Below the pieces are notes generated by a model. It was not told where the DNA came from and searched no databases. It saw nothing but the letters and a program-made list of their open reading frames with translations. Made by a program: the position numbers and the translations under genes. Of a stretch of 64,000 bases of DNA, positions 52,886 to 55,814 are shown one piece after another. The DNA is taken from positions 4,144,501-4,208,500 of the forward strand of contig NZ_JAUSWJ010000001.1 of NCBI RefSeq assembly GCF_030815145.1. The letters run 5' to 3'. Source of the DNA: Kaistia geumhonensis. Lineage in GTDB: Bacteria; Pseudomonadota; Alphaproteobacteria; Rhizobiales; Kaistiaceae. Position 1 is the stretch's first letter; every line of letters starts with the position of its first letter.

Positions 52886-53707
52886 TTACTGCTTGCCGAC
52901 GAGCTTGTCCGCGAAGAGCGCCGCGCTCTTGGCGTAGACCTCGGCCTTGTTCCACTGGCGCAGCACGTTGAAATTGGCCGAGCCTTCTTCCCAGCTGCCG
53001 CCGCGCTGCCAGCCATAGCCCTTCAGATAGTTGGCGGTCGAGGCGAGGACGTCGGCCGGGCTGTGGCGCAGATCTGCATGGCCGTTGCCATCGAAATCGA
53101 CCGCGAAGCGGACATACGAAGTCGGCAGGAACTGCGTCTGGCCGAGTTCGCCGGCCCAGGCACCCTTCATGTCGCCGGGCGAAAGATCACCGCGCTGAAC
53201 GATGGTCAGCGCCGCCATCAACTGGTCGGTGAAGAAGGCGGAGCGGCGGCAGTCGAAGGCGAGGGTCGCCAGCGAACGGAAGGTCGACATGGTGCCGCTG
53301 CCGGCGCCGAAATCGGTCTCCATGCCCCAGATCGCGATGAGGATCGGCGCGGGCACGCCGTAGGTCTTCTCGATGCGCGCCAGCACATTGGCATATTGCT
53401 GCATCAGCTTCTTGCCCTTGGCGACGCGGCCGGCCGAGACGACGCGGGCCGAATAGACCGAGAAGGGCTGCTTGAAGTGCTTCTGGTTGCGGTCGAGCTT
53501 GATGACGCGGGGATCGTAAGTGACGCCGGAAAGCGCCGCGTTGACGACGCGGGGCGAGATGCCGTTCGCCGCCGCTTCCGCCTTGAAGCTGTCGAGCCAG
53601 GCCGGGAAGTCGGCGGGATTGTTGCTGCAGGTGGCGGCATTCGCCGCGGTAGCGCCGGCAAGGAGAACCGTGGCGGCGGCCAGCATACGGAGCTTGTTCT
53701 TGATCAT
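52886..53707 (-). CDS. Lytic murein transglycosylase (SLT_2 / MltB type)
   Basis: A 273-residue exported peptidoglycan lyase. After a signal peptide (MLAAATVLLAGATAANAA) comes the SLT_2 domain with the glutamate catalyst in IWGMETDFGAGSGTMSTFRS and the GELGQTQFLPTSYVRFAVDF motif. The end has GYGWQRGG and FNVLRQWN, usual for this group, and no peptidoglycan-binding domain. Such enzymes cleave the MurNAc–GlcNAc bond with formation of anhydro-MurNAc. The ATG at 53707 has AAGG upstream. It is followed by the flavoprotein gene. Confidence 0.92.
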   Translation of the reverse strand: MIKNKLRMLAAATVLLAGATAANAATCSNNPADFPAWLDSFKAEAAANGISPRVVNAALSGVTYDPRVIKLDRNQKHFKQPFSVYSARVVSAGRVAKGKKLMQQYANVLARIEKTYGVPAPILIAIWGMETDFGAGSGTMSTFRSLATLAFDCRRSAFFTDQLMAALTIVQRGDLSPGDMKGAWAGELGQTQFLPTSYVRFAVDFDGNGHADLRHSPADVLASTANYLKGYGWQRGGSWEEGSANFNVLRQWNKAEVYAKSAALFADKLVGKQ

Positions 53708-53831
53708 GATCAGCCTTCTTCTTCTCCGCGTCGCTGGGGACATTGGCTCGCGGCAGTCACACGGACCGGGAGGATGACGCGTTCAAGGTTACTTTCTCGT
53801 TGAAATCGAGCCTGAACATGGCAGGCGGCCG

Positions 53832-54324: not shown

Positions 54325-54357
54325 AAAAATAAGAAGGGCCGCCGTCAGGCGACCCTT
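54325..54357 (-). terminator. Terminator of the 25-codon unit, before yaiI
   Basis: A 10-bp stem (54334–54343 with 54348–54357, one G-U pair in the minus-strand RNA) with a UGAC loop, followed by CTTATTTTT. It stops transcripts of the small ORF 62 nt beyond its stop codon and lies directly ahead of the yaiI ribosome binding site. Confidence 0.85.
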
Positions 54358-54418
54358 CCATTGTCAGACCGCGACCTGGCCGAAACCAGGCTCCGTGGCG
54401 AAGCCAACCGGGGGCCGG

Positions 54419-54496
54419 TCAGGCGGCGCAGATCTCCACGAAGTCAGAGATCCGGACCATCGTGACGAAGCCTCGCGGCGAACGACAATGAGACAC
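54419..54496 (-). CDS. 25-residue peptide with exceptional ribosome binding site
   Basis: An ORF of 25 codons plus stop, starting with GTG at 54496: its peptide reads MSHCRSPRGFVTMVRIS and continues DFVEICAA. The bases just upstream, 54498–54512, are complementary to about 15 nt of the 16S rRNA 3' end (AAAGGAGGTGATCC). A promoter-like CTTAAC-N17-CTATCC precedes it and a terminator follows, so it forms its own unit. The two cysteines and basic RGF core give no known fold. It may be a translated micropeptide, or a leader peptide attenuating yaiI; codons show no run for one amino acid, which speaks against classic attenuation. Confidence 0.6.
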   Translation of the reverse strand: MSHCRSPRGFVTMVRISDFVEICAA

Positions 54497-54497
54497 G

Positions 54498-54512
54498 GGA
54501 TCACCTCCTTTC
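54498..54512 (-). promoter_or_regulatory. Extended Shine–Dalgarno sequence (15 nt)
   Basis: The plus strand reads GGATCACCTCCTTTC, identical to the 3' end of bacterial 16S rRNA, so the minus-strand mRNA can pair with the whole anti-Shine–Dalgarno tail. It ends 1 bp before the GTG at 54496. Normal sites in this window pair over 4–6 nt. Confidence 0.75.
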
Positions 54513-54532
54513 GTTTGTTGACGATGAGGAGA

Positions 54533-54561
54533 GGATAGACCAGTTTGCCGCCGCCGTTAAG
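54533..54561 (-). promoter_or_regulatory. Candidate housekeeping promoter of the 25-codon unit
   Basis: CTTAAC (54561–54556) and CTATCC (54538–54533) are separated by exactly 17 bp. They resemble the alphaproteobacterial consensus CTTGAC-N17-CTATAT with one and two mismatches. The start of transcription would lie near 54526, giving an RNA of about 200 nt to the terminator. Confidence 0.5.
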
Positions 54562-54578: not shown

Positions 54579-55814
54579 TCAGCGGATTGCCCGAAGGAGG
54601 GCCGTATCGGGGAAGCAGGTCGCGGCGCGGCCGTTCTCTTCCTGCCATGATCCGACGGCGATGCGGGTCTTGTAGCCGACGAGCCCGTCGGCGCTGCCGA
54701 CATCGACGCCGCGCGCCTCCAGGCGCTGCTGCATGGCGCGGACGTCGCCGCGGTCGAAGCCGCCGACATCGGCCCAGCGGCCGGAGAAGGGCGCGGCATT
54801 GCCACGGATCCGGTCGGCGAGATGGCCGATGAAGAGCGCGTAGAGGTCGCTCTCGTTGTACGTCTTCAGGACATAGAAATTGTCGGTGACGAGGAAGGCC
54901 GGGCCAAAACGGCCAGCCGGCATCAGCAGATGCATAACCTGCTTCTGCGAGCGCGCCTTGATCGGCGTGCCGTCCGGATTGCGGACGCCCATCTCGATCC
55001 AGGCGGAAAGCGGCTTGCCCTGGTCGGGGCCCTCCAGCGTGCAGGAGACGGTGGCTGGGACCTGCACCTCGAAGCCCCAGCCGGTGCCCGCCTGCCAGCC
55101 GTTCTGCTTCAGGTAGTTGGCGATCGAGCCGAGGACGTCGGGGACCGACTTCCAGATGTCGCGCCGGCCTGTCCGGTCGAAATCGACCGCGGTCGAGAGA
55201 TAGACGGAGGGCAGGAACTGCGGCTGGCCGAGCGCCCCGGCCCAGGAACTCTTGAACTCCGACAACGGCACATGATCGCCCTCGAGGATGACGAGGGCGT
55301 CGATGAACTGCGGATAGAAATGGTCCTTGCGCGTGCCCATGAAGGCTTCGGTCGCCAGCGCCTGGATGGCCGAGTAGCGCAGCCGCGCGGCGCCGTAACC
55401 GGATTCGCGGCCCCAGATCGCGACGATGATGGAAGGCGGAACGCCATAGCGCGTCTCGACCTCGGCGAGCGTCCGCGACCATGTCGTGAAGCGCGTGCGC
55501 CCGCCCTGAACGAGCGCGCGCATCTTGCCCTCCTCGAAATAGGGGGCCGGGCCACGGAATTCGGCCTGCCGCTGCGGTTCCTCGCGGGTCCGCGGCTGGC
55601 CGGGAGGGGCCAGTTCGGGGAGCGTCCAGTCGAGCTTCAGCCCGGCGAAGGCACGGTCCATTGTGGTCTGCGAGACGCCTTTGGCCGCTGCATCGGTCCG
55701 GACAGTGGTCGCCAGCCACCGCTGGAAGGCCGCCTCGGTTTCGGCGCGCGGCTGGGCGCCGAAGGCCGCGAGCGGCAACAGAACGAGCAGGGCAAGGCTC
55801 AGGAAGAAGCGCAA
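54579..55814 (-). CDS. Lytic murein transglycosylase with peptidoglycan-binding domain
   Basis: A 411-residue SLT_2-type transglycosylase. A signal peptide (FFLSLALLVLLPLAAFGA) precedes the catalytic domain, with the glutamate in VAIWGRESGYGAARLRYSAI and GALGQPQFLPSVYLSTAVDF. The C-terminal 60 residues (GGFDRGDVRAMQQRLEARGV ... DGLVGYKTRIAVGSWQEENG) are a PG_binding_1 domain. This places it in the MltB-like family with a targeting module, unlike the shorter paralogue 1.9 kb away. The start is a TTG at 55814 with GGAG 7 bp upstream. Confidence 0.92.
   Translation of the reverse strand: MRFFLSLALLVLLPLAAFGAQPRAETEAAFQRWLATTVRTDAAAKGVSQTTMDRAFAGLKLDWTLPELAPPGQPRTREEPQRQAEFRGPAPYFEEGKMRALVQGGRTRFTTWSRTLAEVETRYGVPPSIIVAIWGRESGYGAARLRYSAIQALATEAFMGTRKDHFYPQFIDALVILEGDHVPLSEFKSSWAGALGQPQFLPSVYLSTAVDFDRTGRRDIWKSVPDVLGSIANYLKQNGWQAGTGWGFEVQVPATVSCTLEGPDQGKPLSAWIEMGVRNPDGTPIKARSQKQVMHLLMPAGRFGPAFLVTDNFYVLKTYNESDLYALFIGHLADRIRGNAAPFSGRWADVGGFDRGDVRAMQQRLEARGVDVGSADGLVGYKTRIAVGSWQEENGRAATCFPDTALLRAIR

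Follow-up and report, generated by a model that had tools for sequence, protein, structure and literature searches.

A conserved CC2171-family unit with a Shine-Dalgarno sequence complementary to the 16S rRNA tail in Kaistia geumhonensis

In the 2017 report of Hahn et al. in RNA Biol, very short open reading frames (ORFs) placed behind an extended Shine-Dalgarno (SD) sequence reportedly mark the rre small mRNAs, known as rreB in Bradyrhizobium and as rreR in the Rhodobacter lineage. The rreB small mRNA is reportedly 165 nt long, with a 17-nt SD and 14 codons; it is said to be bound to the 30S subunit, to be weakly translated, and to be more stable without its start codon. The criterion reportedly applied to rre small mRNAs is at least 16 nt of complementarity to the 3' end of 16S rRNA. 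Like the unit described here, rreB and rreR are said to have a small ORF beginning with GTG or ATG right behind a 15- to 17-nt anti-16S SD, a terminator of their own, and a CAAC-type leader. A very short ORF behind an extended SD is likewise found in the present unit (25 codons, beginning with GTG) and, at 14 to 33 codons, in all 144 of the elements collected for this study.

The other close system is Rfam family RF01867, the Caulobacter sRNA CC2171. Its consensus, like the present unit, contains GAAAGGAGGUGAUCCAGUGUCUCAU and the helix termed P1 below; unlike it, the family is typed “Gene; sRNA” and has a one-line description that names no ORF. According to a passage of PMC5596092, the Mesorhizobium huakuii sRNA MH_s33 is listed as RF01867, and RNA-seq products were obtained for 34 of 35 predicted sRNAs in that organism, the exception being MH_s6. 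A passage of PMC4117421 states that two earlier-predicted Caulobacter ncRNAs, which it does not name, are in fact translated. Extended SD sites in Staphylococcus aureus, as presented in PMC13009471, resemble the present one in that pairing is extended toward the start codon, but they belong to ordinary Firmicute mRNAs, and we claim no shared RNA family. Passages of PMC5082802, PMC10117765, and PMC3927594 contain no mention of the unit.

Layout and conservation of the unit

The window, by which we mean the whole 64,000-nt stretch of K. geumhonensis DNA that was analyzed, carries the following features.

54556-54561, minus strand: -35-like hexamer CTTAAC, read from the sequence
54533-54538, minus strand: -10-like hexamer CTATCC, read from the sequence, at an N17 spacing from the -35-like hexamer
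54513-54526, minus strand: short leader with a CAACAA motif, from alignment and class consensus
54498-54512, minus strand: extended SD GAAAGGAGGTGATCC, 15 nt, Watson-Crick complementary to the entire single-stranded 16S tail
54419-54496, minus strand: ORF of 25 codons, MSHCRSPRGFVTMVRISDFVEICAA, with its GTG at 54494-54496, one base after the SD
54484-54491, minus strand: 5' strand of helix P1, TCATTGTC, in codons 2-5; 7 pairs are present in the RF01867 structure line
54358-54365, minus strand: 3' strand of helix P1, GACAATGG, whose last base may also begin the terminator stem
54333-54358, minus strand: intrinsic terminator stem-loop, from the fold and a near-identical copy (L008)
54325-54332, minus strand: terminator T-run, read from the sequence
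54335-54520, minus strand: match to RF01867 (CC2171), model positions 1-159 of 159, 71.8 bits, E = 4.7e-15

This is the layout given in the earlier note, from the promoter-like element through the SD, GTG, and 25-codon ORF to the terminator and T-run, and it is borne out here, including the 15 nt of full complementarity to the 16S 3' end. The unit also ends, as had been described, directly before the ribosome binding site of yaiI, whose SD and GTG lie just after the terminator. Transcription would start near 54526, and a promoter pattern of the form CTTn-N16-18-C[ACT]Ann[TC] stands upstream of 59 of 143 elements, against a mean of 4.2 in shuffled upstream sequence. The fold of the 200-nt RNA is better than those of 200 out of 200 shuffled sequences (z = -4.37). 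Of the neighboring genes, one encodes a DUF188/YaiI protein and two encode SLT_2 lytic transglycosylases. The two transglycosylase genes (54579-55814 and 52886-53743, both minus strand) flank the unit and yaiI, and in the six genus loci with enough flanking sequence (L037, L040, L041, L043, L046, and L049) relatives of both and of yaiI are found in the same order around the unit.

The earlier note had named a lack of conservation of the ORF or SD region in related genomes as a finding that would count against its proposal. The unit is present in 13 of 14 genomes of the window's genus, and its SD and start region is matched in 214 of 397 genomes of the order, against 2 of 397 for a reversed control pattern; there is apparently one match per genome, bar a single genome with two. 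A looser pattern applied across the class gave a match in 43 of 142, some of them within long frames. Searching with AAAGGAGGTGATC, a pattern that does not include the start codon, returned 38 places spread over 33 of 61 genomes, counting that of the window. Thirty-six of these places were fetched: 28, including the one in the window, are the unit, 4 fall in the 16S gene, and 4 lie elsewhere; in all 28 units, RTG-TC follows exactly 2 nt after GATC.

For comparison, 161 loci were reduced to 144 distinct elements: each had to contain AAAGGAGGTGATCNNRTGTC with at most one mismatch, and duplicates that agreed over 180 nt were dropped. The copy in the window was one of these duplicates; L008, found in a sister species and identical to it over the first 181 nt from the SD, stands in for it. 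The elements form four classes: MSHC-like (54), MSS-like (58), 14-codon (16), and other (16). GTG is the start codon in 91 and ATG in 53, counts that are biased by the AAAGGAGGTGATCNNRTGTC pattern, whereas the 28-of-28 count is unbiased. The results support the view that this transcription unit is self-contained and that it has been kept, with its conserved extended SD and its short ORF, across much of the order. Three records with titles from other groups (L203, Frankia sp.; L205, a Tepidisphaeraceae MAG; L209, a Sphingomonas palustris MAG) contain the exact Bradyrhizobium-type unit and are probably mislabeled or contaminated.

Relation to RF01867 and to rreB

Judged by its sequence, the unit is a new copy of the catalogued family RF01867. 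The match spans the full model and lies 3.2 bits below the gathering score of 75, which is a curation cut-off and not a biological feature; a default Rfam scan is silent on the unit for this reason. A copy from the same genus (G001) scores 77.4 bits, above the cut-off. The full architecture of the family, comprising the CAACAA leader, SD, closing helix, and terminator, is found in the window, and when the SD and leader are removed the remainder still matches model positions 25-159 (34.4 bits, E = 3.9e-6). Because the stretch behind the SD matches the model alone, the homology extends beyond a shared SD. The covariance-model search proposed in the earlier note, run with RF01867, gave matches across the order, in 60 of 121 genomes at E 0.001 and above the cut-off in 9 of the 121; among 14 control genomes, Caulobacter alone has a match.

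Matches to RF01867 were also obtained for all 15 scanned loci of the MSS, 14-codon, and other classes, with E values from 1.8e-12 to 2.6e-3. The matches of L088 (14-codon) and L029 (MSS) are absent when the SD and leader are left out, and they therefore rest on the SD region, which was also the basis on which loci were collected. Single-copy occurrence, the leader, the start, and the position of P1 in the MSS class only suggest that the MSS and 14-codon classes share gene ancestry with the window.

The 14-codon gene in the records of B. japonicum (L259) and B. diazoefficiens (L250) is presumably the published rreB. RF01867 finds the 14-codon loci L084, L087, and L088, the last at E = 1.5e-5 in the presence of its SD and leader, and L084 has an intermediate appearance, starting with GTGTCTCATT like the window and continuing like the 14-codon type. 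The use of RF01867 to judge whether the unit and rreB form one family was set aside, since L088 and L029 fail without the SD and leader while the window still matches. The Bradyrhizobium type has 14 codons and no P1 at codons 2-5, whereas the window has 25 codons and P1. Elements of that type carry an anti-SD mimic, CACCTC, in 16 of 16 cases and GGATC in 15 of 16, both able to pair with their own SD; the window, in contrast, has no significant downstream SD complement. The Bradyrhizobium branch thus seems to use a device other than P1. About 150-160 nt upstream of the Bradyrhizobium-type unit, the opposite strand carries a tRNA gene (L087, 1268-1338, minus; L088, 1270-1340, minus; L216, 1054-1124, plus; L259, 2359-2429, plus). 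On these comparisons the window unit resembles rreB, and a link beyond the SD region was not found (L088 without its SD). No text joining CC2171 and rreB was found among the literature matches listed, a scope that did not take in Hahn et al. 2017 itself.

The extended SD and helix P1

The length of the SD sets the unit apart in its own surroundings. The 12-mer AAAGGAGGTGAT, with at most one mismatch allowed, occurs once in the window against 0.04 expected, and AAAGGAGGTGATC occurs once in the genome sequence, in which the genome's own 16S gave no match, the rRNA seemingly being withheld or masked. In 46 window ORFs of at least 150 aa, a crude gene set made of the longest non-overlapping frames, no candidate start is preceded by more than 7 nt of anti-16S complementarity; the best values per ORF are 3-7 nt, and 4-5 nt in 37; the range of 4-6 nt previously given for ordinary genes in the window was about right. 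Complementarity to the 16S tail reaches at least 11 nt in 142 of the 144 elements, the commonest length being 17 nt (64 elements); it is 16-18 nt in 91 and 15 nt, as in the window, in 27. The variant GGAGGTGGTC is found in 6 of the 13 genus genomes that have the unit (G002, G003, and G009-G012, with units L040, L043, L041, L037, L046, and L049); a single SD base breaks the long 16S pairing there, and the remaining start region is intact.

Self-sequestration of the SD was not found in the window, as tested through L008 (best downstream complement, p = 0.9). A downstream SD complement at p ≤ 0.05 was found in 13 of 54 MSHC, 3 of 58 MSS, 3 of 16 other, and 11 of 16 14-codon elements. With its own downstream sequence the SD is more open than with a shuffled one in 21 of the 25 MSHC-class elements examined (of 54); the other classes do not show this effect (13 of 25 examined, of 58; 10 of 16; 8 of 16). 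In the family members L010, L012, L015, L017, L019, and L020, the last codons of the ORF hold CGCCTCCT, which overlaps the stop codon region and whose 8 nt are complementary to AGGAGGTG of the same unit; it is not in the window's copy.

In the window and its relatives, TCATTGTC in codons 2-5 pairs with GACAATGG beside the terminator, and between elements the two strands vary together. In an alignment-free permutation test, uncorrected for phylogeny, in which the strands were swapped among the 144 elements, own pairing scored 13.33 and swapped pairing 10.14, and none of 5,000 permutations reached the true pairing; within the MSS class alone the values were 12.78 and 11.85, again with 0 of 5,000. 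Paired versions of the helix include TCATTGTC/GACAATGG, TTGCC/GGCAA, and, as found in the MSS class, GTGAG/CTCAC, ATGAG/CTCAT, and GTGGA/TCCAC. The test is uninformative within the MSHC class (4,003 of 5,000), whose strands hardly vary, and the co-variation comes from the other classes. In the 14-codon class P1 was not found, own pairing scoring 8.50 and swapped pairing 8.60, and for the 16 “other” elements the test was not significant, at 385 of 5,000 permutations. The helix is kept in 25 of 25 sequences of the window's family, with changes to wobble pairs only.

Placed in one ungapped register, 75.0% of P1 cells are paired at best in the MSS class, compared with 30-57% when the strands are slid by 1-3, and 63.4% are paired across the 128 non-14-codon elements, compared with 34-49% when slid. 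Only 49 of the 128 retain at least 5 of 6 pairs in one ungapped register; as far as judged by eye, pairs in the forced register are lost mostly through misregister. The swap test and the in-register count took the place of an MI/APC scan of alignment columns, in which the start region was compared with the pre-terminator region; that scan yielded no clean helix, owing to the dominance of two clades and to terminators placed out of register by MAFFT.

The coding bases of the unit are most constant where the RNA is paired. Codons 2-5 show no synonymous difference among 12 genus elements, and none is found in codons 4-14 among 14 Bradyrhizobium-type elements; when all 16 elements of that type are compared over codons 2-14, some appear, every one at codon 3. 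A pattern with codons 4-9 fixed picked out 79 public records, of which 76 are identical over the five codons that follow, two differ there by one base, and one is truncated. Selection appears, from these sequence patterns, to act mainly on the RNA of the unit.

Competing readings and a proposed role

The explanation that we favor, with a probability of about 0.5, is that the unit is a free-standing small mRNA of the CC2171 kind, predicted to be about 200 nt long, that is selected mainly as RNA, docks the 30S subunit, and is regulated by ribosome occupancy. Its 5' end would act as the dock, with the extended SD pairing with the entire single-stranded 16S tail and the GGAGG core held at normal spacing from the GTG. 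Because codons 2-5 are paired with the pre-terminator segment, the folded RNA and a seated initiation complex would compete for the same nucleotides. Binding of the 30S subunit would be tight and true initiation slow, and the short ORF would let any ribosome leave quickly. Ribosome occupancy would then set the fate of the RNA, either folded and stable or opened and degraded, and an RNA of this sort would suit the sensing or buffering of free 30S subunits. What the computation supports is the conservation, the extended SD, the start codon, the short frame, P1 with its co-variation between elements, and the terminator; transcription in this organism, 30S binding, the competition of P1 with initiation, and a sensing or buffering role are inferences. 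A 30S dock whose initiation site competes with P1 is our best guess and would fit the results reported for rreB; rreB is a possible relative, and the behavior reported for it may not carry over to the window unit.

A true micropeptide gene, in which the 25-residue product acts and the extended SD just provides strong translation, is a fairly unlikely alternative. It would account for the constant spacing of RTG in the 28 matches found without a start codon in the pattern, and for the early stop in every element: frame 0 closes after 14-33 codons throughout the 144 elements, whereas frame +1 exceeds 33 codons in 45 of them and frame +2 in 50, so that the short frame has been kept. The comparison of synonymous and nonsynonymous change proposed in the earlier note could be made, and gives a pN/pS of 0.69 over codons 2-25 within the genus; a value below 1 makes weak selection on the peptide possible. 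Many MSHC-class peptides also share a W..AS.E-like stretch, which is weak support in that the 29 rows concerned were chosen by that motif or the looser W..A; codon-position variation around the motif was set aside on account of this selection. Against the peptide, its length and sequence differ widely among the classes, with only the initial MS near-constant, it has no Pfam match, and the Bradyrhizobium type lacks synonymous differences where its peptide is most constant. The most constant bases of the ORF being the RNA-paired ones, and rreB being reportedly weakly translated, the very efficiently translated micropeptide of the earlier note is unsupported.

The conserved start codon and short frame would be needless if the unit were simply a trans-acting RNA whose 16S-complementary part decoys ribosomes or 16S maturation, with an incidental ORF, and we regard this as quite unlikely. 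The complementarity does span the mature single-stranded 16S tail, and 65 of the 144 elements have GGATC, a partial mimic of that tail, inside their transcript, where shuffles give about 23 (relatedness uncorrected), while GATCC is not enriched (13 of 144 against about 18). With the C or T that usually precedes GAAAGG, however, the complementarity extends neither to the last base of mature 16S nor into the precursor, so pairing with the precursor is not favored. A leader or attenuator controlling yaiI is very improbable, although yaiI lies directly downstream in the window and 20 of the 144 elements are followed by it on their own strand at a distance of at most 800 nt, its start then lying 170-284 nt after the SD. 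In the other 124 it is missing from that place (inverted in one of them), with the reservation that in 24 of these the downstream DNA extends for about 800 nt or less, and in 4 of the 24 for less than 530 nt; in addition, a strong terminator separates the unit from yaiI. Of the ribosome-sequestering or attenuating leader suggested previously, the control of yaiI fails, and ribosome sequestration may hold and comes near the 30S-docking RNA that we favor.

On a wider and unlikely view, CC2171 and rreB would belong to a single family in the alphaproteobacteria, made up of RNAs that are translated, dock the 30S subunit, and are selected chiefly as RNA. A helix at codons 2-5 or, in Bradyrhizobium, an internal anti-SD copy would compete with the 30S subunit, and the RNA would thereby report free small subunits.

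The unit is real and conserved, and it belongs to an already-known family. The elements described here suggest that RF01867, typed by Rfam as an sRNA, has a start codon followed by a short frame that has been maintained. Caulobacter makes little use of SD sites, with 75.4% of its genes lacking one according to a passage of PMC4117421. A ribosome binding site that pairs with the entire 16S tail and has been kept across an order offers a natural test case for very strong SD pairing, and the unit is a candidate for how alphaproteobacteria could gauge their spare 30S subunits.
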